Positions 6,501-64,000 of a DNA stretch of 64,000 bases are shown piece by piece. Source of the stretch: Tubiluchus corallicola. Its lineage: Eukaryota; Priapulida; Priapulimorpha; Priapulimorphida; Tubiluchidae. The translations under genes were made by a program, and so were the position numbers. The stretch covers positions 549,187 to 613,186 of the forward strand of contig JAQGDQ010000113.1 in NCBI GenBank assembly GCA_030141605.1, in the 5' to 3' direction. Each line of letters begins with the position of its first letter. The first letter of the stretch is position 1. Under the pieces are notes generated by a model, which was not told the DNA's origin, ran no database searches, and saw only the letters and a list, made by a program, of their open reading frames with translations.

Positions 6501-9230
6501 TGCTCATGCTTACAAATGTAGTAATATGCACAGACAAGTTCTTTTTACAACAATCCTCTGACAGAGAGCAAATCACTGCATTTTATTCTTTTATTTTTTT
6601 CTGAAACCTAATAATAACAAAATTCAGAAATTACTGCAACTTACGTAAATATGTTTAACAGCAGCAATAATAATCAGAGTAGTAACTCAAAATCATTACA
6701 GCTTTGAAAGGACTGGTAGTGAATTCAAATTAATTAAAGTAAACAAATCCACAAATGATGAAAATATAAAAGTTACTAGTTAAACCATACCAAGCAGATC
6801 ACCGAGCGCAGCTACTCGATCCTTGTCATCTTTCATGGAGTTGGACAAGTCCATAAGATAGTACAAGTCAACAGGGTAGTCCTCAGCTTGTCGATACTGC
6901 ATGGTGATTGTATATGGATTATCTATAAAACACAAAATCACGTATATTCCAACACATTGCTTTTCACACAATTATCATATCAAAAATAACATTTGAGCAG
7001 TTGCCAGATTACCCAAAGTTTTCTTAGTAAGGACTAATGGCTTTCTCTATATAATAAAAACGTTTAAAAAACTGCACTGGATTAAGTGTTATTAACGGTT
7101 TTAATATTCTTAGTAAATGCCTCACTAAATAACTTTTTATGAGATGTTACACCTAATCAAAAATTTTCAACTATGAATTTAAATAAAAACTGTTATTGTA
7201 TCAATAATGAACAAAAGCCACACCAAGTACAATTTATAAATGCACACTGATCTCTCAAATTTATTTTGTTTTATCATGGATGCAGAATGTATATAGCTGT
7301 GAGGATATTAGCTGAGTGGTGACAGTATGTGCTTAGCGACAAAAATGAAACAATGTCATGTCTGCTTAGTAAATAGAGGGCTGACTACCAGGATAAGTGC
7401 TTCTGAAAGTGAGGAATTCTATCTGCCATACTACCCTGAATAAACACCTCTTCTGGGAGGGTCTAAGAACATGGCTAAGCTGTCTCTGCCTGTTCACTAT
7501 CTCATCTTACAAAATTATGAAGAGATAGGTTCTGGTCCTACCAGAACAAGCTACATTAGGGCAAACACTCAATGACCATTTTCAACTCTCTAGGCCCTAG
7601 ATAGCATGGCATAAATAAAAAATAAAACAGTGAAAACACCTGTCACATGAAAAGTATAACAAACTGGGGCTACTTGCAGCGCTTACACTGCTTAGGAGCC
7701 ATGCACATATAACGATATTAAGTTACGATAGGTGGCAGGAGATGCGATAACTCCATTATAACACAAGGTAGGAAGGTCTTCGAAATTGGCTGAAAACTTG
7801 ATATCATTATATGTGGATGGCCCCTTAGGAAAATCAAACATCAAGTGTATCAACTCACTTGGTCGGATCTTTAGAGACATTTCTTGAGGATGGACTTGAA
7901 CCGCTTCCTCGTCTGGACCGACGGATCCCTCCGTCAACGGATCAGCTTTGGTGATATCTTTTTCTGTCGTGGGGTTAGTTATATTCACCCTATCACAACC
8001 TTTAGCAGCTAAGTTACTGTACGTGTCACAACGTGTGCCATCAATGCCCTAGATAAAAAATATCGAACTGGAGAAGCTAATACATAAAAATCTGCATCAT
8101 TTTTTATGTAGATATATAATATGGAAAAATTGTATGGAAAAAGAAAAGGAAAGATTCTAGGTCAAGCTAAAAATTTATGCGATTTTTTGTGCCTTATTCA
8201 AAAACTGCATCATTTACAACGTAGATACACAATATGAAAAAATCACGTGGAAAAAGGAAAAGAAAGATTCCATGTACAGCTGAAATTTTATTCGATTTTT
8301 GGTGAATTATTCAATTCTCAAATTTAAATTACATTTTAAAAACAATTAAAGGACTTCAAAATCATCACATGCTGGTAATACCAAAAATTCAGGGAATTAA
8401 TTCCTAAGTACATCAAGTAAACTGCACAGTGTGTGTTAACCAAAACTTGCCTTTTTCATGTATAGATGACTACTTGTAAATATAGACCTGACGAATTAAG
8501 CAAATAAAGGTTAAAACAAACAAAGGTGCAAATGCTCACTCCCAGTATCTGAACGTGAGTTAAAGCAAACTCATCACACTAAATGTTTTCTCAGAATCTC
8601 CAGTTACATAATGCCTTAAAAATCCACACTGAATTATAGGTTTTGTAAAAATTAGACCCCAATGTTTTTGTAGATATATGTTATTATACGATAATACTGA
8701 CTCACAGAAACTCACATTTTTTTCTTAACAACAGGCCAGGTTTTTTTAATAGATGAGGTCAATATGAAAAAAATTACTAGACTAGAAATTAGATAATTTC
8801 TACATTCATCACTTTGGTTAATTAATATAATTGATCAACCTAAGCAAAGCAATTAACTGGTAAGAATATAGCAATTAATTTGATTAAAAAATATACGTAA
8901 ATGTTAACTAGACTATGAAATAGATAAATAAATAATTATGTGGTGCAAACATTTTAATCATTAAGGGAGTGAGTTACTGCATAAATCTTGTTTGTATACT
9001 ACAGCAATACCGGCAGAGCACATGTACCACACAAATACTGTTATATTGTTGAACTATAAAAATAACCAAACACTTACTTCCTGTTCACACCAGGCACAGT
9101 TTGGATTTGAAGTTATACATATAGCACAGGTTTTATAAGATGTACACTGATTGGAAGAGGAGACTTGGTCCTGAGATAATACACTTGTTACAGCATATAA
9201 CACAAATACTAAACACACTGACAGTCTCAT
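374..9230 (-). CDS. Integrin beta subunit, ten coding exons, 3' part outside window
   Basis: Type I membrane adhesion receptor subunit that pairs with an alpha subunit to bind matrix or cell ligands. Joined exons (9078-9230, 7859-8048, 6791-6922, 5583-5764, 4304-4549, 3312-3497, 2722-2850, 1593-1958, 861-1065, 374-589) give one open frame of 668 residues with GT-AG junctions and matching phases. Order: signal peptide, PSI domain, hybrid domain, beta-I domain (MIDAS DLSNS at residues 139-143; [10 protein letters not shown] at 228-237 with the usual LIMBS Asn/Asp/Glu), second half of hybrid, four cysteine-rich I-EGF repeats and the start of the beta-tail. The remaining beta-tail, membrane helix and NPxY tail are expected left of position 1. 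It resembles beta1-like and invertebrate beta subunits; orthology to one vertebrate beta cannot be set by eye. Confidence 0.97.
861..1065 (-). CDS. Integrin beta exon 9: I-EGF3
   Basis: 68 codons plus one base. Contains [11 protein letters not shown], the typical start of I-EGF3, then NGLICGG and CFCGKCDC. One extra residue pair (SSRGSC) sits where most betas have GxGxC. Acceptor tttatcag, donor gtctgt at 860 (a weaker donor). Confidence 0.93.
1593..1958 (-). CDS. Integrin beta exon 8: hybrid end, I-EGF1 and I-EGF2
   Basis: 122 codons, phase 0. Begins with the last hybrid-domain strands ([13 protein letters not shown]), then two cysteine-rich integrin EGF modules recognisable from [24 protein letters not shown] and [10 protein letters not shown]. 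Donor gtgagt at 1592; the frame continues 20 codons into the intron. Confidence 0.95.
2722..2850 (-). CDS. Integrin beta exon 7: end of beta-I and second hybrid segment
   Basis: 43 codons, phase 0. Too short to stand out as a long open frame; found from the acceptor tttgtag at 2851-2852, the donor gtatgt at 2721 and the family pattern SELILTDN...VKYRTSC...[10 protein letters not shown]. It joins in frame to VNFDITVTV of the next exon. Confidence 0.9.
3312..3497 (-). CDS. Integrin beta exon 6: C-terminal beta-I domain
   Basis: 62 codons, phase 0 at both ends. [23 protein letters not shown] followed by YEELRKLI matches the family pattern around FAVTE. Consensus donor gtaagt at 3311. Confidence 0.94.
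4304..4549 (-). CDS. Integrin beta exon 5: central beta-I domain
   Basis: 82 codons, phase 0 at both ends. Contains [18 protein letters not shown] and [19 protein letters not shown], near-invariant in integrin betas (LIMBS and MIDAS co-ordinating residues). Read-through of the donor adds 16 intron-coded residues before a stop, which are not part of the protein. Confidence 0.96.
5583..5764 (-). CDS. Integrin beta exon 4: beta-I domain with specificity loop
   Basis: 60 codons after a split codon. Contains [19 protein letters not shown], conserved in integrin betas. The specificity-determining loop is unusually short, with two residues between its cysteines (CTGC, residues 196-199), then [13 protein letters not shown]. 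Ends in phase 0 at a gtaagt donor. Confidence 0.95.
6791..6922 (-). CDS. Integrin beta exon 3: beta-I domain start with MIDAS
   Basis: Carries [20 protein letters not shown], the hallmark of integrin beta-I domains. Asp139, Ser141 and Ser143 form the metal-ion-dependent adhesion site and the following Asp pair the ADMIDAS. Acceptor tatag at 6923-6924, donor gtatgg at 6790. Confidence 0.96.
7290..7580 (+). repeat. SINE-like dispersed repeat, copy 1 (in integrin intron 2)
   Basis: Begins near an A-box-like ttagctgagtgg and ends near ggttctggtcctaccag. Shares ctgcttagtaa, aagtgnttctg and tctgccnyactnycc blocks, in order, with 29140-29400, and its 3' block (tctctgcctgttcactatctcatct...gtcctacca) with both arms of the large inverted repeat at the right end. 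Diverged; family assignment not made. Confidence 0.5.
7859..8048 (-). CDS. Integrin beta exon 2: PSI end and first hybrid segment
   Basis: 63 codons plus one base. Contains [14 protein letters not shown], the usual strand before the beta-I domain. The open frame runs about 165 bases further left to 7692, but the true end is the GTGAGT donor at 7858: splicing there joins in frame to exon 3 and matches the family, while the read-through sequence does not. Confidence 0.93.
9078..9230 (-). CDS. Integrin beta exon 1: signal peptide and PSI start
   Basis: 51 codons. The ATG (9228-9230) opens a hydrophobic leader ([17 protein letters not shown]) followed by the PSI cysteine pattern CxxxxxCxxC and the NPNCAWC motif typical of integrin beta N-termini. 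Ends in phase 0 at a consensus donor (gtaagt). Upstream, a ttttgcag acceptor at 9245-9246 marks a 5' UTR intron, so exon 1 begins near 9244. Confidence 0.93.
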
Positions 9231-25009: not shown

Positions 25010-25357
25010 GACAGGAATCACAGAGATTCGGCGTTAACACTTAAGAAGGTCAGATTAGTCATCTTTGACGATAGCTTCCTAAGCTGCTAGACGTCCATGG
25101 TCTGCTAGGTGATTTTATACCAATAACTAAACTTCTCCACAGATGGCAGCTCACAACAGTCATGCGTTCATGCGTGTCAGCACTGCGTGAATTCGCCGTG
25201 ACATGCAGCGTGAAAATGCATGCATTCCAATAAATTACAATCATGTGAAAGTGAGTTTTAAAGTTTGGTTTGGTTCAGTGGATTTTAGCAGTTCCCATCC
25301 AGGTAGCAAAGAATTTACTTACCTGTTTGATTGTGTGTTGTGATTTTCGTTTCGGTA

Positions 25358-27337
25358 ATGGGCCTGCTATCTGAAGGCTCACCTCTGTCATGGGAGGAGA
25401 CGAAAAAATGGTCTGATCATGTTCACAAGCATGGGATATTACAGTTCATAAGTTTGTATCATAGATTAAAAAACGTTGAACACGAGGAACTAAAATGGGG
25501 GGATGAGGTGGAGTATACTTTAATTAAGTTAAACCACTCCCAAAAGTCTGCCAAAGTGTTGTTAAAGGCTCAGGAGATGTTAGAAATTCTTCAGGCCAAG
25601 GAAAAGGCTGCGGGTTCAGGTCAGGTAGAGGAGCTGCATTCTATTTGGAGGCCGGAATACGCAAGTTATATGGTAGAAGGGACACCTGGAACACCCTATG
25701 GTGGTCTTCTTTCTCATTTTAATATCGTTGAAGCTAATATGCGTCACCGACGTGAGGAAATGATGTCATTGCTTGATAAATCAGCTGGTGAAACAGCATT
25801 GAGTGTAACAGTGTTTCCTCGATTAGGCTGCCCTGATTTTACAGAGCCTCACGCTGATCCAAAACCATACTGCGAGTCATGTGCTTCAAGATCACTTTAT
25901 TTTCCAGATGAAGCCATTTTTCCGGGTCATCCGCGTTTTGCCACGTTAACACGTAATATTCGTTGCAGACGAAAAGAGAAAGTGGCCATAAATGTTCCTG
26001 TTTTTAAAGATATCAATACAAAATCACCATTCCAAGATGATTTTTCTAAATTAGGTGATGATGGTGAGAGAGGTAGGCAAGCAATTCCAGATCATATCTA
26101 TATGGATGCTATGGGTTTTGGCATGGGCTGCTCATGCTTGCAGATGACATTCCAGGCTTGTAACTTAAAGGAAGCAAGACTCTTGTACGATCAGCTAACT
26201 CCTTTGTGTCCAATTGTCCTAGCACTGAGTGCGGCTGCCCCAACTTTTCGAGGTTGTTTAGCAGACGTTGATGCTCGTTGGGACGTTATTGCTAAATCTG
26301 TGGATGACAGGACGCGCGAAGAACGAGGATTAGAGCCTCTCAAGCATAACAAGTTTGTCATTAAAAAGTCGCGCTATGATTCTGTGGACATGTACATAAG
26401 TGAAGGCAATACTTCATGCAATGACGTTGACATTGTACACGATAGAGAGCTGTACGAGATGATGGTGAATGCGGGAATTGATCAAGTTCTAGCAAAACAC
26501 ATAGCACACCTGTTCATTAGGGACCCGGTGTCACTTTTTAGTGAAAAGATTCACCAATGTGATAAAGAAGAATCCGACCACTTTGAGAACATCCAGTCGA
26601 CCAACTGGCAGACAATGCGATTTAAGCCACCACCGCCTTACTCCCCAATTGGTTGGAGGATTGAATTTCGTCCCTGCGAAGTTCAGCTTACCGATTTTGA
26701 AAATGCTGCTTACGTAGTCTTTGTTGTCCTACTGACACGGGTGATTTTGTCTTACAACTTAAACTTTGTGATTCCCATTTCCAAGGTCGACGAAAACATG
26801 GCGGAAGCGCAAAAACGTGATGCTGTGCTACAGGGAAAATTCTGGTTTGCCAAGGACTTGATAACCTGCAATTCACCAGCCGAAGCTGCCACCTGTTACA
26901 GAGGTTGTAAAGTAGTGAAGGCAGAAGAGAACTGGGATTTGATGACCATCAATGAGATTATTAACGGAAAGCTTGGACTGTTTCCTGGATTGATCCCGAT
27001 GATCCAAACATATCTAGAAAGTGTAGAAGTGGATGTTGATACATCTTGTACCATCAACCAGTATCTTAAGTTGATAGAGAAAAGAGCTTCTGGGGAATTA
27101 AAAACATTTGCTCGGTGGTCACGTGATTTCATTCAGCACCATCCCGACTACAAACATGATTCGATTGTGACAGAGAAGATTAACTATGATTTCATGGCTC
27201 TCTGCGATGAAATTAGCACTGGTGCTGTTTCGGGTGTTGATTTGTTTGGCGTGAAGATTACTAAAACAACAGACAATGTGCCTACTGCAGTGCTGAAAGC
27301 AAACAAAGACAGGAATCACATGTATGAAACGTCGTAA
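25358..27337 (+). CDS. GCLC: Glutamate-cysteine ligase catalytic subunit, single exon
   Basis: Cytosolic enzyme joining L-glutamate to L-cysteine with ATP, the rate-limiting step of glutathione synthesis; usually paired with a modifier subunit. 659 codons against 637 in human. The start is the ATG giving MGLLSEGSPLSWEETKKW, the near-universal N-terminus of the eukaryotic family; the nine codons before it lack an ATG. Landmarks: KWGDEVEY (from residue 46), the substrate-pocket region YMDAMGFGMGCSCLQMTFQA (from about 248), VDDRTREERGLEPL, SDHFENIQSTNWQTMRFKPP, EVQLTDFENAAYVVFVVLLT (about 440), KVDENM and NHPDYK-like HHPDYK near the end. No stop, frameshift or intron interrupts it. The last about 30 residues are divergent. 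Confidence 0.97.
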   Translation: MGLLSEGSPLSWEETKKWSDHVHKHGILQFISLYHRLKNVEHEELKWGDEVEYTLIKLNHSQKSAKVLLKAQEMLEILQAKEKAAGSGQVEELHSIWRPEYASYMVEGTPGTPYGGLLSHFNIVEANMRHRREEMMSLLDKSAGETALSVTVFPRLGCPDFTEPHADPKPYCESCASRSLYFPDEAIFPGHPRFATLTRNIRCRRKEKVAINVPVFKDINTKSPFQDDFSKLGDDGERGRQAIPDHIYMDAMGFGMGCSCLQMTFQACNLKEARLLYDQLTPLCPIVLALSAAAPTFRGCLADVDARWDVIAKSVDDRTREERGLEPLKHNKFVIKKSRYDSVDMYISEGNTSCNDVDIVHDRELYEMMVNAGIDQVLAKHIAHLFIRDPVSLFSEKIHQCDKEESDHFENIQSTNWQTMRFKPPPPYSPIGWRIEFRPCEVQLTDFENAAYVVFVVLLTRVILSYNLNFVIPISKVDENMAEAQKRDAVLQGKFWFAKDLITCNSPAEAATCYRGCKVVKAEENWDLMTINEIINGKLGLFPGLIPMIQTYLESVEVDVDTSCTINQYLKLIEKRASGELKTFARWSRDFIQHHPDYKHDSIVTEKINYDFMALCDEISTGAVSGVDLFGVKITKTTDNVPTAVLKANKDRNHMYETS

Positions 27338-45802: not shown

Positions 45803-46421
45803 GTGGTTCTGTTGCTATTAAGGGAGACTTGTCAGCATATCGCGTCTCATACGTGGTACGCGTGGAGGCTGAAACGAGTGTTTATGAATAGACCAAGCAG
45901 TTTGTCACCTAGTAGGATGACCACAGAGAGACCAGCCTTAATGGTATCGTGGAGTCATGCAGAGAGCGTCTCATATAAAGGTCTGCATAACTGTCATATG
46001 TCAGCAGTACGATACAACTTCTACTTGAGTTAACTTCTACGACGTTTCTTTTTAGTTGACATTACGGTTCACGATTGACAATACACCAGGACCACGTTGT
46101 GAAGTACCAGTGAAGCTAGTACTACATTCTTCTCGTGTTGGCAATATTGACTTTTAGTTAAACTCTTTCATCAAGTCTGTTGTTTATGAATCATGGAGAA
46201 ACAACTTATTTTTCGCAACGGAAGTGTAGACGGAAGTCGACGAGAGCTTATTATGGAACCCGTACCTCTTTACAGCCCGTATTACATCTAAATTATGGAA
46301 TGTAAAGAAGTATGGAGTACCTATAAGCAGTATCAACGTCAACATCGCTTAACACTTGCCTGGAGGTATATCAACTCACCTATCACGTGTGAAATTAGCA
46401 TAAATTATTTACAGCAATAAA
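45803..46421 (+). other. Possible short transcript unit, uncertain
   Basis: Downstream of the CArG-containing patch are an open frame (Met at 45881 to the stop at 46031-46033, MNRPSSLSPSRMTTERP...), a 32-codon frame in good start context at 46193-46291 (MEKQLIFRNGSVDG...) and an AATAAA at 46416-46421. None matches a known protein. It may be chance. Confidence 0.2.
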
Positions 46422-49599: not shown

Positions 49600-51091
49600 G
49601 TGTTGTGACATTGCCAAGATCTTGGCAGTTAGTAATGCGCATTAGTATGTTAATACTTTCTTTCTTATGCCCGTTTATACAGGCTATATTCTCGACTGTA
49701 ATTTGCCAAGATTATCTAGCGAAATAAACAGTTGGCTGCTGTAAGTTTTGATTGTAAAATGTTACGCGGTTTCGAAAGTTTAAACCTATCTTTATCTAGA
49801 TTTTGCAAAGGATGCTTTAGCAGCTGCTCATGAAGCAAGTAACGATTTATTCACAGGATCGTCGTAATACATGAAAGACACTTTCTTATATCCAGTTTCA
49901 TAGATTCTTTACAGTAGTTCGTCAAGAATGTCCAGTAACTAGACGAAAATCTGTCTACTGGTGTACGTTTTATAATAAAAAAATACGTTATATAGTTTCA
50001 ATAGCTGAAGTCCATCTTTATCTACGTATTTCTAATATTGATACTGACGTCTTATCAAATGCTTGTAACGAATTCATTATAAATTTGTTCACGGGCTTTA
50101 TGTGTTTAGTAAACGAGTCCTAAAAGTGGAAAATTTTGCGATGGCTCAGAAATAAGTTAAAAAATACAATGAAAACGTTATACTATGACAACACAGCTAC
50201 CTCTCAACATTACACGAAGAACGCATATTCAAAGTTTGAGTTAGTCATCTTTCTGTGTATACCAAGAATTAGTCTTTTCGCATTTCTTTTGTTGTTAACC
50301 GGTTGTCTTTACAAAAAAGTTGCGGTTTTGCAAAGATTTTGTTTTTTATTTTACAGTTATTAAATACCATCTAAATGAATGTCTGGTTGAACTGCCAATG
50401 AGTTTATTAAGGTTGTCTTTTGACGTTTTAATAGAGATGTGTTCAGAAATGTTTTCCAAATTAGCTAGTGAATACAGATGAACTACAGCCCCTAGAGAAA
50501 CCTGTGTTTTGAGTAGTTTGAACCTCAACTTCAGCAGTTTCACGGAGTCGCATCCCGTGCATGCTGTAGGACAGATCTCTGTATTTTTAGCTGTTCTAGA
50601 TAAAGTTCACATTGCGAAGACCTCCTGCCGTTGCTGAAGCCATAGAGCCGACCTTAAATAGCGCACTTTCACACTTTCGCAGCTTGCCAAACTTGAGAAG
50701 TCACCCGAAGCATCAAGTTCGCCTCGAGCATGGAGGGGGGGGCATCGTAATAAATGCAATAGCATTGCAGCTCTTTAATTATGTGATTAAGCCTATTGAA
50801 ACTTTAGTCGTGAATTAGTGGAATGGGAAGAGGCGGCTTGTGGTTGCCACAGATAATGCTTTCAAAAATAATATGATTCCTCTTTGCAATGTAGATGCAA
50901 GAGTCCATGGATGCTTATCCTGCCAAAAGTGTAGTATTAATTCCAACAGGCTCTGTTTATCACTAAATACATCTTGAAGCTGGTTTTCAATTGTTTAATA
51001 TTGAACCCTGCGCCTTTAATAAGCCTCACTTAGTAATTTTCTTTGTCCTCTTTGATACTTTGTAATTCATTGTTATTCGTGACAGAAAAGT
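49600..51091. other. No gene recognised
   Basis: Short frames only. Confidence 0.45.
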
Positions 51092-51690
51092 TTAGTTAAT
51101 TTAATTTAATTTATTGGGCTAACAGTTAGCATTTACAAATATATCACAGTTATTACACAATACGTATTTACACAATATTAATGACAATAATACAGATTAA
51201 AAAAGATTATATAAATTAGAACATCATAATTTGTGGTATATACCCAGTTGAAACACATAACTATTAAACATAGGATAACGTAACAAACATAACAATAATC
51301 AGACGTTTGGATAATATAATGTTATTTTTAATTCGCACTAATTATTCCGTTTGCCCTGATTTTAAAACAATCTCTGACAAAGTTACTAATTAAATCTAAC
51401 GCTTCGCATCGTCATTTCGTAAAATCAATTTAAATTCTTCATTATTGTTCATATCTGGTAAATTAGGAAATAGGCCTAATCTCGAAATTTGGTCAAATAA
51501 CATTTACGTTTCATATCATACTTTTTACAACGCAATACCAAATGTTCCTCACTTTCATTATCTAAAGTATTACAATATTTATGCACTCTTTAATTAACAG
51601 GTATTTTAATAGGCTTATGATGTCGTCCACTTTCTATGGCAAGAGAATATGAACTTATACGCAATTTAGTAAATGCAAAATAAATTATGA
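51092..51690 (-). mobile_element. 3' end of a LINE, 5'-truncated
   Basis: The minus strand reads SSYSLAIESGRHHKP, a stop, then VHKYCNTLDNESEEHLVLRC, the post-RT segment of many invertebrate LINEs (SSHxLxIExGR...CxxC...DExHFLxxC). It ends with an aataaattaaattaaattaaac tail near 51092. Stops show decay. No target duplication identified. Confidence 0.75.
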
Positions 51691-51699
51691 TGAATAAAC

Positions 51700-53600
51700 A
51701 GATCTTAAAGCTATAATTTTTTAGCATGACACAGGAGTTGTTTTCCAACAAGTCAACAAACTATGGCCATTGACTACAGTAACCGCCACTCTATATTATT
51801 TTGTAAACTAACTTCATTGGAAGCTCAAGGGTTTAAAATAGGCAAACAGTGCAGTGAAAAACTTTTCAAATTTGACCTTATTTAGGAGTTCTTTTAAAAA
51901 TGAGAACAAACTATTAGAGCGAATTGAATAGCATTAATTGCTTAAGCGAAATCTACTTTTGTTTAGCCCACTTTTAGACGCTGCAGTTAGAATGTCTGTC
52001 AGACTGTCAGCTCTACACTGAAGTTTTATACGGAATTTGTTGCAGGCATTTCTGGAATGTTTCGTAGAATGTTGAAAACTGTTTTTCTGCCCGACGGTTC
52101 ACAACTTGCCAAGGTCGAAAGGCCAAGGTCAAAGTAAAAAGACTTCCGAAATTAGGTGCTATAGAAAAAAAATGATTTCCAAAAATGATGTTTATCCCAA
52201 AATGAAAAAAAGAACAAAATTAGCCTTTAAACTTTTTTCCACCCATTGTAGTACGACCTTCTGGAAGCATCAGCAATAACCCTTAAAAGGCCACCAACTT
52301 ATAGTGTTTCTTCAGACTTGTCAACAGATGTCACCTGGTGACGTATAATATGGTATCACTCACACTGTTTACGGCACTGATGGCACCATGTATACAAATA
52401 TTACTTTTAAACTAAGAAGAGCTAATATACCGTTAAAGTGTGTCATATTTTTGGTCTTTCTATGAAATCGGCTTCAATTTGTTCAGTTTGACAGTTTTAG
52501 TTTTCCCAGGCCAGTCGAGCTGTAGCGACGGATATGGAAGAAGCCAGGCATATTGAAGCCCGTGCTCAGAATTCTGCTGTACAGTTTTGCTATTGATCTG
52601 TGCAGGCAGTCAGCAGTTAGATGCCTCGTCTAGTCTCAACAGGGCTTCATCTGCCACTGATGAAAAGACGAGGTTCTGTCCATCCTGATGTGGTCACTGT
52701 ATGATTATCATCAGCACCATTAGTTCAGGATGGTCAGTTAACCAAGAGGTGAATAAGATCTGCAACAGTTGTACTGCGACCTCTTTACGAAAGTCTTGGT
52801 GGTTTTCCGTGTTGCAGTGTGCAGATGTAATTCAGGTCATCTCTGTCAGAGTGACCACAAACCAGAATGTGATTTGTGTCAGAGATGTTTATGTGACACC
52901 TTATTACTTTTGCATTTATTACGTGTCTCATAGTGGAGATAGAATGAGCAACAAGGGCGAAACTTGTCTAATCTCAATCAGAAACACTGAGAATGTGCAT
53001 GGGCTGTTCCAATAGATATCTTGACGAAAAAGTGAAAACAGGGATTCTCTTGAAGTAAGTACTTCTGGTGCTGCCAGACATTCTAAAATATTTTGGCAAC
53101 ACTTTGGTATGGCAGCTTAGGGAGTGTGCACAAAAATTCTGAAATGTGGCTGCGGAAGCTTCCAGATTCTAAAGTAAAGTAGCATTAGCTGATAATCCAC
53201 AAAGTGAAGATAAACCTTTGCCACCAGTTTTAATGCCCGCTGATTTAACCGCTTTAACCACCCTGTCTGCTCTTTGCCTCAGTGCTTTCCAATTTGCAGA
53301 TGTAAAACTAACGAAGTAGTCACGTTGTCCTCGTCGATTGCGCAATAAAAAGTGGAAAAATCGACGTGTCTGGATGATCGTTCGTTGACCCTGCCACTCC
53401 CAGGAACGAAGCCAAAGCAACTGACGATGACATTTGGCGCCTTACTGAGTCAAATATTTTTCAAGCTATGCAGAATTTTCATTGGGAATTATGCTTATAT
53501 TTAACTTACACTGACTTTCAAACGTTTAAGGGCTCTTAATACTCACTGTTAGGAGAAACTGGCTGAGCTGAACCAGGCTGCAATTCACTTTTGTATATGA
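51700..53600. other. No gene recognised
   Basis: Frames at 52701-53015 (plus) and 53169-53420 (minus) are open but match nothing known to me. ccaaggtc occurs twice at 52111-52132 (orphan nuclear receptor half-site-like). Confidence 0.4.
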
Positions 53601-53649
53601 AACCATTGGAAGCTCGATACATTGCAAAACTTACATAGCACCATTCATC

Positions 53650-53825
53650 TCATCGTCATCTTTGTTGTCGTCGTGTTAATAAGCATCATCGTCATTATTA
53701 TAGTCATCATCATCACCATGGTCATCAATAGCGTCGTCGTCGTCGTTTTCATCATCGTCATTGTCTTCGTCATCGTTATCGTCATCATCATGATCATCAA
53801 CATCGTCATTATCAATAGCATAACA
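53650..53825. repeat. Degenerate (atc/gtc)n trinucleotide tract
   Basis: Mixed atc, gtc and att triplets giving a hydrophobic Ile/Val open frame that is a by-product. Confidence 0.92.
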
Positions 53826-53974
53826 TGGTCACTGAAAAAAAAATGAATAAGTAAGCACGATCCAATGTCTACTCCATTGAATTAGTTTATTGCAAAGTCA
53901 ATTTAACCACTTTTGTGTATAGCTTAGAATAAATGTAGAATCACATGCGTCAGCTTTGGTCAGTTTAAATAGAT

Positions 53975-54246
53975 GGGCTAGAGATTCTGGGTCTTTGTAG
54001 AGTAACTACTAGCAGTTTTGAATTTTGTGTTCTACGTTAGGTGACTACGAGAACTCTGTCAGTTTTGAACTTGGGTCTGTGTTGGGTAACTACCTGAACT
54101 CAGTCAGCTTTGACTTTTATATGCCTATGTCGGGTTGCTACCAAAACTTTGTTAGTTTTGAATTTTGAGTCGATGTCGGGTAACTACCAGAACTCTTGTC
54201 AGTTTTGACTTCTACATGTCTATGTCGGGTAGCTACCAAAACTACC
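53975..54246. repeat. Minisatellite, unit about 45-48 bp, five to six copies
   Basis: Units start agttttga and contain tatgtcgggtaactaccagaac; full copies at about 54014, 54060, 54105, 54153 and 54200, with a partial one before. Diverged by about 10-25 % by eye. Confidence 0.9.
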
Positions 54247-54451
54247 AAAACTGAGTAGCAGTACGCAATACAGTAAACATATCTGGTTAACAGATCTGGT
54301 TAAAACAGATTTCAAATATAACGGATAATTTTTTGCTCGTCCAATACTTTGATTATACCTGACAAGTCCGCAGTAGCGAAACTATTTACGTAGGTATATA
54401 ACTTCTTTGCACAAAAGAAACATGTAGCCTGGGCAGTGAGGCAGAGGAAAC

Positions 54452-54532
54452 TGCGTAGAAGCCGATTTTTCCGACATTAATCCACCCATTTAATAACAAA
54501 GTCCAGCGTTGCTTAACAGCCGCTCTTCAGGC
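54452..54532 (-). repeat. 5S-rRNA-derived fragment, copy 2
   Basis: Minus strand gcggctgttaagcaacgctg-gactttgttatta-aatgggtgg aligns to the 5S 3' region and shares with copy 1 the loss of ctt before the atggg block. Confidence 0.65.
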
Positions 54533-56175
54533 CATGACCGGTAACCCCGTTCCCCATTTATTGAAGGTTAATGCCGGTTACCTCTGTAAGTTGTCTGTTT
54601 GCATGCAATTTATTTTATTTTGAATTTTAGTTACGATGAGGACACGTTTGAATAACGCTGATAATGTTTGGAATAAACTTCCAGTAAATTGCTATTTCTA
54701 TAACAGTTTTTTCTTATCAAAATGGGATTACACGTTGTTGCAGTACAAACTTCCGTTATCATAGACATGATGTTTCAAGACTAAGCATTGGGCAATTTAT
54801 TTTATAAGGCACCAATATATTGACACCGAATTCCCTTAAATATAATGTTGTTGTTAATGATCCCGAAACGAAATTGATCCAACGTTAATTTATTGTTAAT
54901 TTGTGAAATTCACAGCTAACTGACATAAACTACACTTCTAAGCTGATACAGCAGCCAGCACCGAATCGCAATGCACTTCACTATATATAGAAGCCATGTT
55001 ATCATGAAGGCTGGCAGGCTACTGCCCGGTTAGTGAAGCCAAATCATTGGCGTCAGGAATAAACTTGACTGCAGACGTTGCATTATTAAGGTAATAAAAC
55101 TACCCATGGTATTTGCAGTGCGGTGGGCCTAACCCCAGACATGAATGTTGACAATGGGCCAACAACGTTAATTCAGTAGATAAAAAAACATTGCAACGCG
55201 TCCTGAAAGCATTCTTTAATAATTACATTGTTGTATGCAAATCAGATTCCAGCAATAAAAGTCATCTGCAGTGCGACCGGAATCTCGCTCACTATCAAGG
55301 CTGATCCTTTAAGAAGAGGCACTAGATTAGCATAGGTACCTTAGCCATGTTCGGATACATGCGAATACAACGAGGATGACGACAACCTGAAACAGTATGG
55401 CGAATGGAACTACCTGCAACGAATATTGAACGCTGCAGTTGCCTATCTCTTTACTAACTAGATTCGGCGTTGCTGAACTTCAGTTGCTAAGCACACCCTG
55501 TTAGCACGCAGCTTCTTATCTCTTTTAACGTAAGTTAATTTGTGCCAAAGCATAGCAAGCGATTCTGTAGTAAAAACAGTACCGTATTTAATTGCATTGC
55601 ACTGTAGCGTACTGTAAGTTGAAAAATGAAGTGATTTTGATCATGGAATAAACTGATTAAAAGGGAAACGTGTATTTTGCAGACTGTTATTGACGAAATT
55701 ACATGGAGAAGATGCATATAAAATCAAAGTAGAATTTGACACAAGCTGCTAATAGTGTCTTGGTTGAGACCAGCGACGGACTGAACCCACAGGCCTTCCA
55801 ATGGATCCCTCTGTATGAATTTACGGATCACGAAAAACGTTTCCACTCCAAGATAGTTAATTGCCACATTGAGTAAGAAACTCATTTATCAACTAAAAAT
55901 CGTTTTTAATCATGATTGTCGTCGTCGTCAATATCATTATCACGTTAAAAAGGTAGCAGCGACAGCAGTGACAACACTAAAGTCTTAATTATCGGTTTTA
56001 CGGTTTCAAATTTATGACCGCAACTTGCTAGAAAAACAAAAGTTTTAACCGTAATTAAAAATTACACGTACTGATCATAGGCATTCGTAACTAGGCATTG
56101 TATATTTATTTGTAATTGACATGTTTGTCTCTGCGACAATTGCCGTAGTAGTAGCAATAACTAGATCTACAATAA
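54533..56175. other. Repeat-bearing, no gene recognised
   Basis: Apart from 5S-derived copy 3, nothing supported. Confidence 0.45.
55431..55500 (-). repeat. 5S-rRNA-derived fragment, copy 3
   Basis: Minus strand ttcagcaacgccgaatctag-ttagtaaagagataggcaactgc aligns to taagcagcgtcggg..tggttagtacttggatgggcgaccgcc. More diverged than copies 1 and 2. Confidence 0.6.
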
Positions 56176-56179
56176 GTAT

Positions 56180-56326
56180 TTGCTGCTGCTGCTGCTGCTG
56201 CTGCTGCTACTGCTACTGCTACTGCTACTGCTACTGCTACTGCTACTGCTACTGCTACTGCTACTGCTACTGCTACTGCTACTGCTACTGCTACTGCTAC
56301 TGCTACTGCTACTGCTACTGCTACTG

Positions 56327-56360
<34 letters not shown>

Positions 56361-56394
56361 CGCTGCCGCCGCCGCCACCACCACCACTTTACCT
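56180..56394. repeat. Compound microsatellite (CTG)n-(CTACTG)n-(CTA)n-(CCG/CCA)n
   Basis: About nine CTG, then about twenty CTACTG hexamers, then about ten CTA, then CCG and CCA triplets. Long Leu, Cys-Tyr and Val-Ala frames are by-products. Confidence 0.97.
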
Positions 56395-56399
56395 GCTAC

Positions 56400-57570
56400 C
56401 GCTAGCAAACTGCCCTCATTGTGTGTACGCTTGTTTTCATAAGATAACCCAGATAGCCATAATCAAAATAACTCTGGTACTTGTTACTTTGAACCGTGGT
56501 TCGAAATAAAATTCTGTATCATTGTCTTTATACATTCATATACAATTTTGAAAACTAAGCTAAATTGTAATCGTGTTTCAGGTGACTGAATTTATATTTC
56601 ACAGGTTCTGAGTAAGATGCGAATACAAGCATAACCGGAAGTTTGAAATTTTTTTGAAGCTTTTGTTATTATCACATTTATTATTTTATTACTATTATCA
56701 AAACCTGTACTTTGGCTTGTTAACTTACCTGACAGATTGAAGCACCATACCGTCTACTTGCTCAGGTTTGATTTAGTGCTAGTCCTTCAGTTTCTTGCTT
56801 CTCCTGACACGAAGGCTCTTCCACGAAGGTTAGTTGCTTAAAGCCACTTTGTAAATGATGACTTCAGAATCTTTCCTCATTGGTTCTTAAACAACGACAC
56901 TTCCCATATCTTAATACTGGATATTCCCAAGTGTCAAACAGCAGCTCATCAATCCAGCTTTTCTTTCTAACTTTTTATCTGTGGAATTCTTTACCAGAAA
57001 ACTATTTCCCTATTAAGTACAACCTCCCCTCAAGGAAACGTACCTTGATACATCATCCCGTTTTATTAGGAAATTGATTAAAAGAGTTTTCTTGACTCTG
57101 TTTCGGTTTTTTTCGTTTTTAAAAAGACTTCTTTTCGAGCCATAAGCATAAAACTACTAGCTATTCACCTGAATTATTAAGTTAAAATCGATATAATATA
57201 TATTGATGCATGGAAAATTGCGATTCCTAAGCAACAAAAGTTTGCCTGAACTATTAAGTCTGCAACTATCGTTCTGAACACTAATTTTGAATCTGTGGTT
57301 ACGTCTGTCAGTATCAAATTATTTATTTGGTATTAGGTTTATTAAATATTAAATTTATTTAGTATAAAGAATTTGCTCTCTTTTATACACATTTAATTAA
57401 CGTTTTTATTGATGCATTATAAGTTTATTAGTACATATATTTTAAATTGAAATAGTGTAAATCAGCTTATTAAATTTTGCTTCAGTTGTAAACCATGGAG
57501 AATGGAAAGACCTTTTCTTATGAAGATGAAAGACCTCTTCTTACTTAGTTATATTCTTTACTTGCTTACC
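56400..57570. other. No gene recognised
   Basis: Frame 56880-57077 resembles the end of a LINE-type ORF only vaguely (LFFLTFYLWNSLPENY, cf. LWNSLP); too short to call an element, but LINE debris is plausible. Confidence 0.35.
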
Positions 57571-57596
57571 TACCTGCCTGCCTGTCGGCCTTCCTA

Positions 57597-57647
<51 letters not shown>

Positions 57648-57650
57648 ACT
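57569..57650. repeat. (CTGC)n microsatellite
   Basis: About 14 tetranucleotide units with flanking ctac/cttc variants. Confidence 0.96.
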
Positions 57651-58147
57651 TACTTATTTTTGTTTCAATTATTTTGAAAAGTTAAATTCAACGCTGGTGG
57701 GCGTTACCCTTAAAAGCATATCATAATTTAGCAATTAGCCCATTAGCCGCATGGAACAGTTATTAAAAGTTCATTTTGCGCTCTTGTAATAGGCATTCGT
57801 AACCAGGTATTGCGTTTTTATTTATGACTGATATGTTTATTTCTAATGGTCGAATAGGAGCGTCAGTTGCAGTAGTATTAGATGCAATAATTAGGTATAG
57901 TAGCAAATATTCCCTTTGAGTGCTGTTACCACTGCAACCTGTATTTACCTGATATCACGATTCAGTCGCACTAAGATGTGTTATATTATCTCCCGGTCTG
58001 TCAGTCACCATTTTTTTCGTCATCTTTGAATCATGAGTACAACGCCATGATTTTGTTCACGTCTTCATCCCAATGGCTCTGCAATGGACCAACTGCTTCT
58101 ATCTCTAAGGATCAGTATATTATTGGAACTTTATTGAACCATCTTTA

Positions 58148-59825
58148 TTGGAACTGTGAAGCCAGACACTTGATACTTTATTGGAGAACTGCTTTCTTTG
58201 TCTGACTACAGGAGAATAAAGTGCCTCTTTTTAACCCTATTTCAGTCATTGCCATGGTAATACTTATCAACGCGCGTGTGAATTAAATTTAACTTTAGCA
58301 TTTTAACGAGGCAAATTTCGCGTAAAGAAAAAAAGAGCTGATAAGATGGTCCATATGTAAAGAAATTAGTAAAATGACACAAGTTACTTAGAACTTTGAC
58401 ATTTCACTTACATTTGCAATGACAATAAAATATTTTTGTGTTTTGCAGATTTAACGCCACGTGGAGCCAACAATTCCAGTGATGCCTTAGTGTAACGAAA
58501 ATTAAGCTCTTTTTAAAAATCTAGAAATTGATTGAGTGTGTGAGATCGTAGTTTTACTATACAATTCTGTACGCTGCCTCAGCACTCAGTGAGGTCCTAC
58601 TAATGTTGAGTTGTTGTGGTAGGACAGGAACTCAAAATCATTCCCGAGGATGAATTCTATGAGATGAGATATTGAACTGGCAGAGAATCTGAACACATCC
58701 TCCTTTAATGGGGAGAAAAGCTGGGCAGCATGAAGCGGCTCATTAGTTTACCAGCCCAGTCCTGTTTATGTGCAAATAATATCGTTCGTCATAATTAATT
58801 CGTAAATATTTCTTCGTCTGCAGGAAGAAGTGAAAAATGTCTTTAGCTGGATGTGTCATCAATAAAATCAAATTTATGTGTTGGCGCAAAAATATAAAAA
58901 TAAGCTAATATTTTAAAAAATATATCTAAAGAAATGCGTTTTGCATAAAACCTAATGGAATTTATAGGTGTACAATATGCTATTCCTACATATCGTAAGA
59001 TAAATTTTATAAATCGGATATGTAATCATTTTGTTTAGTCTCATCGAGATGTTTGATTAACTGCTTTGAAAAGTGGTAGTATTTAGAAACGGGTTTTACG
59101 TGTATAATAAGTTAATTTATTTCAAACAGCAGCACCAAGTTTCTAATTGTAACTTTTTGTCAACTATATGTAGCATTTTCAATTGTAACAGCTAGAAAAC
59201 AATCAAATGTGTAAAAATACTGATCAAAGATTTTGTGATGAAGAACTCTCTCTGTGATATACTGAAATCACACAAAATGTGCCTGTGATTTGATTCAATA
59301 ATGTAAAGTAAACTAGAATCATTTAGGTAGCTGTTGTAAAACATTTCCTACAAAAGAGTATTGATTTTTCCCAGTATCACCTGCAGTCAACAGTTTTCCT
59401 TAATGAATTTTCTTAATTATATTATATAATGTTATAAAATTAAATTATACTAGAATCTTAAAGTGGGAAATGAAGGTAATAAGCTTAAAGGTATTAAATT
59501 TTTGAAGAAAAATATGACCCAAAATGCAAAATACTTTGGACTGGAATTAAACCAGTGACGTTTGAGTAATCAGCTCAACGTCTTAACCCACTTGATCACA
59601 CTGCCCTTGAAAATTATGAGCAACACAACACAGACACTAATTCTATCCTAACAAACATTTGAAGTGGTGGAAAAACTGGTGAGTTATTAAAATTTAATCA
59701 GTATCTATGTTTTTCACAAGGGTCTGAATGGTCTATTAATCTGACACTTTGAGCTGTGAAAAATCCTTGTTTCAAATTCAAGCACAGTGCTGATTTTTCA
59801 ACTTTTCACATTTGTTCTTTGTTGT
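58148..59825 (+). repeat. Left arm of large inverted repeat (palindrome)
   Basis: Each base at position p pairs with 122148 - p on the other strand. The register is constant from the inner edge (59825 with 62323) to the window end (58148 with 64000), so no net indel, and several 40-60 base samples showed no mismatch. The arm holds the SINE-like repeat (about 58570-58760), a tRNA-like segment (59538-59606) and AT-rich unique sequence. The outer end is unknown. Confidence 0.97.
59538..59606 (-). repeat. tRNA-like SINE head in left arm
   Basis: Mirror copy of 62542-62610, identical sequence on the minus strand. Confidence 0.65.
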
Positions 59826-60523
59826 CCAGCTGTGGTGAGAGTTGTTAATCGCAGCTTGTGACGGAGAACTATTTGTGCAATTTTAACGTAAACCACTACA
59901 TTTGAAATTACAAGCAGCAAAAAATTGAAGTTGATCCAATAAATATGCCCAACGTAAGGCACTTCATCTACGGAACATATTCCAGTGTCTGTATCAGGCG
60001 TAGTCAGAGGGCGAATCAAACTCGTGACACCATGTATAAAAGCGTAAAACCAAGTAAAAAACAAGATGATGGCGGTGTGACGGTGGTTGAAGATCACTGA
60101 GTATCGAAGTGGATAAATCACAGCGACATATCTGTCAATCGTTATCAAAGTTTGACACATTACAGAACCAGTAAATAACAGATCAGATAAGAAGGTACTA
60201 GCCATGCAGTTAGCAAATGTCAGCTGTTCATTTCTCGCCCGCTTCGCAATTTTCCACAAGCCAAAGACGGCAAAAACTGTTCCGTTCGTGGCTAGATTTG
60301 CCAAAATGACATTCGATGGTGTGCGTAGAGAACGCATGCTGGCAACGGCTACGGCAACTGAACCATTTAGAATTATCACAATAAAGTCGAATACCAGGAA
60401 TATTATGAACAGTAGGAGTTTTATTTTTCCAATTTTCGCACCTGTTTTTAAGCCGCTGACGCTGTCGGAATTTGCAGAATTTGTTACATTTTCTATGAAA
60501 TTTTGCATCTGCGTAAGATTCAT
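59798..60523 (-). pseudogene. Rhodopsin-class GPCR, TM1-TM5 only, 3' end replaced at inverted-repeat junction
   Basis: 241 codons. N-terminal glycosylation sites N2 and N12; TM1 about 36-62 (LNG), TM2 70-93 (LANLATNG, with Asn where most have Asp2.50), conserved Cys106, TM3 ending DRY (130-132), TM4 about 149-170 with Trp158, ECL2 Cys183, TM5 about 194-220 without the usual Pro (ISNVVVY). After RHKLRLTTLTTAG the frame enters the repeat arm at codon 234 and stops after QQRTNVKS. TM6, the CWxP motif and NPxxY are absent, and no candidate exon for them was seen to the left. Ligand class not assignable; lack of Pro5.50 is seen in adenosine, cannabinoid, lysophospholipid and melanocortin receptors. 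It could be a live multi-exon gene if a distant exon supplies TM6-7. Confidence 0.82.
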
Positions 60524-61087
60524 TATCAGAACAAATTAAAAACTGAATTCTTTGAGAGGAAAGCAATACATTAGTGTGCATATTCGGCTTGCGTTATGTA
60601 TTACAACACAGTATAACCATGCGCAGATGGCCATAGACGAGTCAATCTAAACGAAGGTGCGACCAAGGTGAAAATTTTTTGTCTCTTTTTACACGACTTT
60701 CAAACTATGGATCAAGATAAAATTTAAAAGGAAACATCCGATTACAATGTGTCAAAGTTTGTAAATGTAACTTGAATTGAAGAACGGGGGTCTTTAAATT
60801 TATGAAGGATAATTACAAGACCAAGGCATTCATCTACGTTAAAGTAAGCTGACACGTTAGGTGTCAGTAGAAACTGGGAGCGCAAATAGAGCCAGTCTGC
60901 AAATACAGCCAATTCTGAAAAGATAGAAATGCCAAAGTTCGTCGTTTTGTGACATCTCAACAACGTTTAAAAATCATATATTCAATGACAAAGGATAAAT
61001 GGAACATACACACAAAGAAGTTAAGCCACTCCTGATGCCATGCATCTCGCGTAGGATATACGCATTACGTGTACTTCAGGTGAAAGG

Positions 61088-61145
61088 TGGATAGCCAAGT
61101 GGTCACAATGTGCGTCTCGTGACCGAACTTGCAACCTTGAGTCTT
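61088..61145 (+). repeat. Degenerate tRNA-derived SINE head
   Basis: gtggatagccaagtggtcac followed by gcgtctcgtgaccg and ccttgagtc resembles the A-box to B-box part of common tRNA-derived SINE heads. The B box is eroded. Confidence 0.4.
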
Positions 61146-61486
61146 ACCTGTAAATGAATGGGCGAATTGCTAGTTCAGTGTCCCATCCTAGCGGACTATC
61201 TTCCATAATGAGATTCTGTCTCGTCACAATCAGCTGCATGTTGAACAAACTCTGCCACTGAGTGTTAAAGAGCAGCTTGATGTGTAGAAAACTGTTGCAC
61301 AATGATGAAAAGGTGAGATGCAACACTAAACGGCAGTTCTTACTCAATGTAGATGGTTGTGGCAAAACCGGAATCTGGTGTATTGTCAATAATAACCAAT
61401 AACATGAAACAATGGGCCGACAGAAGCCTCCTAGTTACATTCGAATATATACACCTTTCCTATTATTAAAGATGGGTCTTTTTCAT

Positions 61487-61488
<2 letters not shown>

Positions 61489-61529
<41 letters not shown>

Positions 61530-61592
61530 ACCACCACCACCACCACCACCACCACCACCACCACCACCACCACCACCACCACCACCACCACC
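61489..61592. repeat. (CCG)n-(CCA)n compound microsatellite
   Basis: About 11 CCG then about 23 CCA triplets, pure. Poly-Arg/His and poly-Gly frames are by-products. Confidence 0.98.
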
Positions 61593-62541
61593 AATATATA
61601 TAAATATGTTTAGTGTAAGATTCATTTCATGCAAAATTTCGTTCACTCTTTATAAGCACTCTGTGAAAGCATAGTATGAGGTTAACACTAGAGGTTACTG
61701 AAACAAGTCAGCATGTTACAGTAATTTTACAGAAATTTCAATACGTGTGCTATATACACAAACATAAAACAAACAAAAAGAAGTGTAAAAGTTTACAGTT
61801 TTACAGTAGTGATGAAGATTGCAAGATGTGCGTTAGATACTGCTTAGAGCAAGTGGGACTTAGCGTCTTGTTTCTGCAGTTTTTCGGCTGTCTGGTGACG
61901 TCACTTTGAAAGTTGCGATGACGTAGAAACATTTTATGTCAACAACAGCTGGTTGAAGGGGACCAAATGAGTCGGTCTGGTACAATTTGGCCCTGATCCA
62001 ACAAGCTGACTTTGACATCGGTCAACCATATTCTGCTACAGCCTGCATTTTTTCTTTTCCCCGGCGAGAGGTGGCGTGGTGAGACAACAATAATCCAGAG
62101 CACCAGATTACCTTTTTGACTTTCAAGTAGCGTTTGTTATGAAAACAAAATTATACTAAAATTAGAGAAGGATGATATTAACTACATTTACCCAATCATG
62201 TCAGGTGTAATACGTACTATAGCCTCCAATTAACACACAAGTACACTGCAACAAGCAGACAATCAACTTAACAGTGGAATAAACACACAATTATTTTGAA
62301 TTTTTATTCAAGTATTACAGGTACAACAAAGAACAAATGTGAAAAGTTGAAAAATCAGCACTGTGCTTGAATTTGAAACAAGGATTTTTCACAGCTCAAA
62401 GTGTCAGATTAATAGACCATTCAGACCCTTGTGAAAAACATAGATACTGATTAAATTTTAATAACTCACCAGTTTTTCCACCACTTCAAATGTTTGTTAG
62501 GATAGAATTAGTGTCTGTGTTGTGTTGCTCATAATTTTCAA

Positions 62542-62610
62542 GGGCAGTGTGATCAAGTGGGTTAAGACGTTGAGCTGATTACTCAAACGTCACTGGTTTA
62601 ATTCCAGTCC
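62542..62610 (+). repeat. tRNA-like SINE head in right arm
   Basis: Shows A box-like gatcaagtgggttaagac, a 5-bp anticodon stem ttgag/ctcaa with loop ctgatta, a 5-bp T stem actgg/ccagt with loop tttaatt (B box-like). The acceptor halves (gggcagt / ccaaagt) do not pair, so this is a tRNA-derived SINE head or a pseudogene, not a working tRNA. Confidence 0.65.
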
Positions 62611-63375
62611 AAAGTATTTTGCATTTTGGGTCATATTTTTCTTCAAAAATTTAATACCTTTAAGCTTATTACCTTCATTTCCCACTTTAAGATTCTAGTA
62701 TAATTTAATTTTATAACATTATATAATATAATTAAGAAAATTCATTAAGGAAAACTGTTGACTGCAGGTGATACTGGGAAAAATCAATACTCTTTTGTAG
62801 GAAATGTTTTACAACAGCTACCTAAATGATTCTAGTTTACTTTACATTATTGAATCAAATCACAGGCACATTTTGTGTGATTTCAGTATATCACAGAGAG
62901 AGTTCTTCATCACAAAATCTTTGATCAGTATTTTTACACATTTGATTGTTTTCTAGCTGTTACAATTGAAAATGCTACATATAGTTGACAAAAAGTTACA
63001 ATTAGAAACTTGGTGCTGCTGTTTGAAATAAATTAACTTATTATACACGTAAAACCCGTTTCTAAATACTACCACTTTTCAAAGCAGTTAATCAAACATC
63101 TCGATGAGACTAAACAAAATGATTACATATCCGATTTATAAAATTTATCTTACGATATGTAGGAATAGCATATTGTACACCTATAAATTCCATTAGGTTT
63201 TATGCAAAACGCATTTCTTTAGATATATTTTTTAAAATATTAGCTTATTTTTATATTTTTGCGCCAACACATAAATTTGATTTTATTGATGACACATCCA
63301 GCTAAAGACATTTTTCACTTCTTCCTGCAGACGAAGAAATATTTACGAATTAATTATGACGAACGATATTATTTG

Positions 63376-63580
63376 CACATAAACAGGACTGGGCTGGTAA
63401 ACTAATGAGCCGCTTCATGCTGCCCAGCTTTTCTCCCCATTAAAGGAGGATGTGTTCAGATTCTCTGCCAGTTCAATATCTCATCTCATAGAATTCATCC
63501 TCGGGAATGATTTTGAGTTCCTGTCCTACCACAACAACTCAACATTAGTAGGACCTCACTGAGTGCTGAGGCAGCGTACA
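63376..63580 (+). repeat. SINE-like repeat segment in right arm (mirror at about 58568-58772)
   Basis: ttctctgccagttcaatatc-tcatct and gtcctaccacaac match the 3' half of the copy at 7290-7580 in order and spacing. Confidence 0.45.
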
Positions 63581-64000
63581 GAATTGTATAGTAAAACTAC
63601 GATCTCACACACTCAATCAATTTCTAGATTTTTAAAAAGAGCTTAATTTTCGTTACACTAAGGCATCACTGGAATTGTTGGCTCCACGTGGCGTTAAATC
63701 TGCAAAACACAAAAATATTTTATTGTCATTGCAAATGTAAGTGAAATGTCAAAGTTCTAAGTAACTTGTGTCATTTTACTAATTTCTTTACATATGGACC
63801 ATCTTATCAGCTCTTTTTTTCTTTACGCGAAATTTGCCTCGTTAAAATGCTAAAGTTAAATTTAATTCACACGCGCGTTGATAAGTATTACCATGGCAAT
63901 GACTGAAATAGGGTTAAAAAGAGGCACTTTATTCTCCTGTAGTCAGACAAAGAAAGCAGTTCTCCAATAAAGTATCAAGTGTCTGGCTTCACAGTTCCAA

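Follow-up and report, generated by a model that had tools for sequence, protein, structure and literature searches.

Does the long inverted repeat that closes a contig in the genome assembly of the priapulid Tubiluchus corallicola (GCA_030141605.1) belong to the chromosome, or is it a product of how the sequence was obtained and assembled? The repeat lies at the right-hand end of a stretch of 64,000 nucleotides (nt), hereafter called the window, which corresponds to positions 549187-613186 on the plus strand of contig JAQGDQ010000113.1 (C1408; 613,186 bases). The assembly that was searched comprises 343,548,820 bases in 2344 contigs, and labels such as C1408 and C50 refer to its contigs. An earlier note on this DNA had placed three origins side by side: a very recent duplication, ongoing gene conversion between the arms, or an assembly error. 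Our results favor the last of these on account of the terminal site of the repeat, a receptor gene broken at the arm boundary, a microRNA hairpin lying antisense to its usual partner, and a second contig end of the same form whose unfolded sequence is present elsewhere in the assembly. For gene conversion no supporting result was obtained. Judged from sequence comparison, the repeat is very probably a contig-end artefact, produced by fold-back strand switching or by a corresponding slip of the assembler, rather than a palindrome of the chromosome.

Geometry of the inverted repeat and its place on the contig

A repeat search over positions 50000-64000 (minimum length 40 nt) returned a single inverted pair, the inner arm A and its terminal copy (Table 1). 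Both arms are 1678 nt long and 100% identical, without indels or mismatches; the note had reported no net indel and, in sampled stretches, no mismatch. The proposed pairing rule p + p' = 122148 was borne out at 1678 of the 1678 positions of the inner arm, and pairing was at chance level from 59826 onward. The spacer B between the arms, previously put at about 2.5 kb, measures 2497 nt. The longest exact inverted match was 18 nt after shuffling the window (one mononucleotide shuffle) and 34 nt within window positions 1-58147; an inverted repeat of 1678 nt is far above chance level.

It had also been suggested to follow the arm past the window. Base 64000 proved to be the last base of C1408, which fixes the terminal site of the repeat but puts further arm sequence out of reach. 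Because the contig stops within the right arm, 1678 nt is a lower bound for the arm length. In the present assembly, sequence outside the arms exists only on the left side. The arm gave four matches in the assembly, of which two were full-length, both on C1408, and the others covered 79 nt (79%) and 96 nt (78%). For the spacer, the matches listed elsewhere in the assembly were one to a paralogue of the receptor gene described below (67%, on C1953) and seven short ones (37-122 query letters, at about 61.3-61.5 kb).

The arms also contain a tRNA-like match at 59539-59599 on the minus strand, with its copy at 62549-62609 on the plus strand (30.1 bits, compared with a gathering score of 29). This is perhaps a tRNA-derived short interspersed nuclear element, and a similar stretch was seen by eye near 61085-61140.

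The broken receptor gene and the microRNA pair

At the inner junction lies a frame for a rhodopsin-type G-protein-coupled receptor (GPCR), whose 7tm_1 match lacks the portion for the last two helices. The final 28 nt of this frame, stop included, fall in the arm. The closest paralogue (C1953:13662-14345; best among 150 scored of 587 candidates) shares 52% amino acid (aa) identity. At the DNA level, the two genes are homologous over window positions 60420 to 59818, so that the similarity stops 8 nt beyond 59825|59826. The ten best other GPCR matches sit in open frames of 329-391 aa, compared with 245 aa here. In nine of these ten, a match to the C-terminal half adjoins within a frame of the same length (three of the nine copies being near-identical, judged by their scores), which means that the GPCR family is mostly intronless.

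An assembly-wide search with the C-terminal half of the paralogue (100 candidates scored) gave 72 matches at E ≤ 0.1; none was on C1408, and none exceeded 43% identity except the query itself. Within the arm, this half scored 47 at best, whereas shuffled sequences (n = 200) reached 51. A Pfam scan of the minus frames down to 49.8 kb, which is blind to the GPCR C-terminal half, returned just a weak SPX match (E = 0.034). An intron at the break, with the C-terminal half located farther along, was rejected because this half had no match on C1408. The paralogue itself shows a frame shift beside an apparent short tandem duplication around C1953:13664-14242 (by eye), reflecting either a pseudogene or a sequence error.

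Since the gene break coincides with the arm boundary, both probably arose in one event. A fold at the opposite spacer end would not be expected to land precisely on the GPCR break. On these grounds, the inner junction 59825|59826 is probably new and false.

A second, weaker hint of a wrongly oriented spacer comes from two microRNA hairpins. As assembled, mir-1 and the mir-133-like hairpin of the spacer lie 15.6 kb apart on opposite strands. With the spacer flipped about the repeat, mir-133 would come to lie at 60134-60208, downstream of mir-1 and, like it, on the plus strand. The mir-133-like hairpin is divergent and scores below the Rfam gathering score; on the minus strand it folds better than 200 of 200 shuffles (z = −4.7, with z = −3.1 on the plus strand), and it is the one match in the assembly among the matches listed (59 of 36,386 candidates scored). 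In human, mir-1-2 and mir-133a-1 lie on the same strand. The mir-1/mir-133 pair has been described as an ancient cluster (PMC1388199), and it is listed as an animal cluster under a definition that asks for the same strand and a distance within 10 kb (PMC3763532). Flatworm mir-133 is reported near a Mind bomb gene (PMC4405270). Used as a further orientation marker, Mind bomb gave eight matches over five contigs, none of them on C1408. Mind bomb domains occur at C1949:11135-14677 on the minus strand, near the start of C1949, and this contig is a candidate neighbor of the C1408 end.

Table 1 Coordinates (window positions) of the repeat, its junctions and the genes discussed
Feature	Position	Strand	Remarks
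Inner arm A	58148..59825	+	Outer limit hidden, since the contig end cuts the partner arm
Spacer B	59826..62322	none	2497 nt
Terminal arm	62323..64000	-	Exact reverse complement of 58148-59825; ends at last base of C1408
Inner arm/spacer junction	59825..59826	none	Read as probably false (chimeric); GPCR homology stops here
Spacer/terminal-arm junction	62322..62323	none	Putative native neighborhood (A then flipped B), from the GPCR break and mir-133 orientation
Truncated rhodopsin-type GPCR	59798..60523	-	241 aa; Pfam 7tm_1 profile positions 2-189 of 260
mir-133-like hairpin	61940..62014	-	In spacer; 38.9 bits on -, 24.9 on +; gathering score 55.5; E 8.9e-7
mir-1 hairpin	46251..46324	+	49.3 bits on +, above gathering score 45.6; 36.9 on -

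A second contig end and a possible mechanism

Contig starts were sampled in 23 cases, including the start of C1408 itself. Twenty of these samples were 10 kb long (C1, C50, C1408, and every hundredth contig between C100 and C1800 other than C1400) and three were 5 kb long (C1900, C2000, and C2200); three of the 23 begin in N, and a fourth is partly N. A fold-back signature was detected in one of them, C50. Its arms (1-2360 and 6005-8365, 99.87% identity) begin at contig base 1 and enclose a spacer of 3644 nt. One difference, at 2188, occurs in the first 2349 arm positions, and the rest lie from 2350 on, in the junction zone. Other inverted repeats of at least 100 nt were shorter or more diverged (C300, 217 nt, 82%; C1500, 382 and 232 nt, 95%). 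An inverted repeat on C800 (554 columns, 76%) also starts at contig base 1 and is too diverged for a recent fold-back.

When C50:1-6004 was searched in the assembly (82 matches; 40 of 1199 candidates scored), C1695:5-989 was found to be identical to C50:2343-3327 over 985 of 985 nt. C1695 departs from C50 at the terminal-arm junction, where 7 nt (ATTTTTA) are common to both templates and sit inside a longer near-match between them. Within the first 2600 nt of C1695, a Kelch frame (Pfam) is open for 664 codons, about 335 of which lie beyond the junction, whereas the frame in C50 ends 51 nt past the spacer edge. A fold-back is the best reading of the terminal arm of C50, and C1695 carries the sequence in unfolded form. 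Identity throughout the 985 nt points to a single haplotype rather than to two alleles, although this would depend on how heterozygous the animal is. The unfolded counterpart was found for C50 alone, so direct proof is limited to that contig. C50 and C1695 are probably genomic neighbors, apparently left unmerged because C50 ends in a fold-back.

For C1408, the native order would most likely be L (carrying mir-1), A, flipped B (carrying mir-133, followed by the front half of the GPCR gene), and then the GPCR remainder and onward. Most probably, a strand synthesized through A and flipped B switched inside the GPCR gene, landed where A ends on the complementary strand, and ran back through A. The resulting molecule would then have been built into the end of C1408, so that the contig reads L - A / B - reverse complement of A and stops there. 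Both contig ends take the form of arm, spacer and reversed arm. At C50, the contig body is joined on the arm-spacer side; at C1408 it would be joined on the returning side, so that the spacer appears inverted. A product of this form is expected if a growing strand, once displaced, primes anew on the opposite strand at a distance of a few kb.

The closest known system is that of the chimeras formed during multiple displacement amplification (MDA). According to the account of Lasken and Stockwell (2007; PMC1855051), 406 of 475 such chimeras were inverted, 337 of those had their segments less than 10 kb apart, either segment order occurred, and more than 70% of the junctions were primed at 2-21 nt. 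Both contig ends resemble these chimeras in that the inverted second segment lies less than 10 kb away (2497 nt at C1408, 3644 nt at C50) and one stretch is passed just once (PMC1855051). At C50, the two templates share 7 nt exactly at the junction, within the 2-21 nt range; for C1408, no native GPCR continuation was found with which the junction could be compared. The earlier note had taken the unique spacer as an argument against a simple read fold-back, which does not hold because strand-switch inverted chimeras leave a unique spacer too (PMC1855051). Unlike MDA chimeras, the present cases are known from assembled sequence alone, their arms exceed 1.6 kb, and either amplification or another step may have produced them. 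We infer the in-vitro origin, the chemistry and the native order at C1408.

Alternative explanations and consequences for annotation

Within the artefact class, strand switching has a competitor in a pure assembler slip, by which a short terminal contig (flipped B plus an overlap with A) was attached by its wrong end. Such a slip would explain why, at C1408, the overlap is exact, the false junction is the inner one and the repeat is terminal; the added piece would measure 4175 nt. An end-to-end join does not, however, predict the 7 nt of exact microhomology at C50, for which C1408 offers no comparison, and we regard the slip as possible but distinctly less than even in likelihood. As it forms part of the artefact class favored above, the likelihoods given here overlap and do not sum to one. 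A real, recent inversion of A and flipped B in the living animal, by staggered breakage or strand-switch repair, leaving A in opposite copies and cutting the GPCR gene, would require that the assembler merely stopped within the second arm. Models of staggered breakage and repair do leave inverted duplications at inversion ends (PMC7584159), and their parts come in the order seen at C1408, with oppositely oriented duplicated ends around an inverted segment (PMC7584159). A real inversion would also fit the GPCR break and the orientation of mir-133, and zero differences over 1678 nt are compatible with a young event. It would nevertheless have to coincide with a contig end, and it calls for outer flanks to the left and right as well as for presence in the DNA of the animal, whereas only the left flank is seen here. 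Moreover, the C50 end shows the same form with its unfolded sequence present at 985 of 985 nt, although the weight of this would depend on heterozygosity in the animal. We therefore consider a real inversion improbable. Slightly less probable still is that a young, possibly polymorphic inversion flipped the only detected mir-133 against mir-1 and cut the adjacent GPCR gene; if true, an ancient muscle microRNA pair would no longer lie on one strand.

Sex-chromosome palindromes, which are old, far longer and bordered by unique DNA on both sides, share with the C1408 repeat near-perfect arms around a unique spacer; none of the former three properties is shown here. That the repeat is a long-lived palindrome of this kind, its arms kept identical by gene conversion, would fit the perfect arms (1678/1678) and a unique spacer with a gene fragment. 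Yet there is no sign of age (zero differences), no second outer flank, and the gene breaks exactly at the arm boundary. Across 199,732 non-N bases (the sampled contig starts plus 10 kb left of the window), the C50 contig end was the sole inverted repeat of at least 1 kb and at least 99% identity. No result supports a gene-conversion palindrome and none is a direct test of it, and we rate it as very improbable. Long inverted arms flanking a spacer are also expected of a transposable element with long terminal inverted repeats, of the foldback or Maverick type, but what lies in the spacer is part of a GPCR gene together with the mir-133 hairpin. Pfam found no transposon domain across the arms and spacer, with 7tm_1, a weak DUF2946 match (E = 0.099) and a weak ZrgA match (E = 0.26) as the hits. 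A transposon was rejected, since the two full-length arm copies of the assembly both belong to this structure, and it is the least credible of the explanations considered.

Several points weigh against a contig-end artefact at C1408: (i) the signature was detected in only one of the 23 sampled contig starts, and the three 5-kb starts are too short to show a fold-back of the size of that on C50; (ii) the false junction is at the terminal arm in C50 and, by inference, at the inner arm in C1408; (iii) the C50 arm and spacer also hold repeats, which account for many of the 82 matches; (iv) assembly searches with the arm and spacer did not find an unfolded counterpart of C1408; (v) the C-terminal half of the paralogue gives no Pfam hit, and the Pfam scans could not detect such a half here; (vi) the GPCR fragment could be a natural pseudogene, as the C1953 paralogue also loses its frame, about ten codons beyond the corresponding point, with its C-terminal half following the break in a shifted frame, and some weaker matches among the 150 scored lie in short frames (e.g. 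159-262 aa); and (vii) the orientation argument from mir-1 and mir-133 is weak, the two lying 11.7-34 kb apart in flatworms, where the authors doubt a single transcript (PMC4405270).

In the remainder of the window, Pfam gave no hit at E ≤ 0.01 on either strand between 27.4 and 47.1 kb, and none at E ≤ 1 on the plus strand between 47.1 and 57.1 kb. Within 1-27.4 kb the scan covered just the frame 25331-27337 on the plus strand, an unbroken 668-aa frame for glutamate-cysteine ligase (Pfam GCS, E = 3.1 × 10−173), of which residues 10-629 align to PDB 3ig5. Together with mir-1 and the 150 scored GPCR matches, this ligase marks the genome as that of an animal.

If the repeat is indeed a contig-end artefact, annotation of this locus would wrongly show a segment as duplicated, a GPCR as truncated and mir-133 as antisense to mir-1. 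At C50, an error of this type cuts short a Kelch gene that stays open in C1695. Screening all contig ends for terminal inverted repeats would reveal such cases and permit contigs to be joined correctly to their neighbors.

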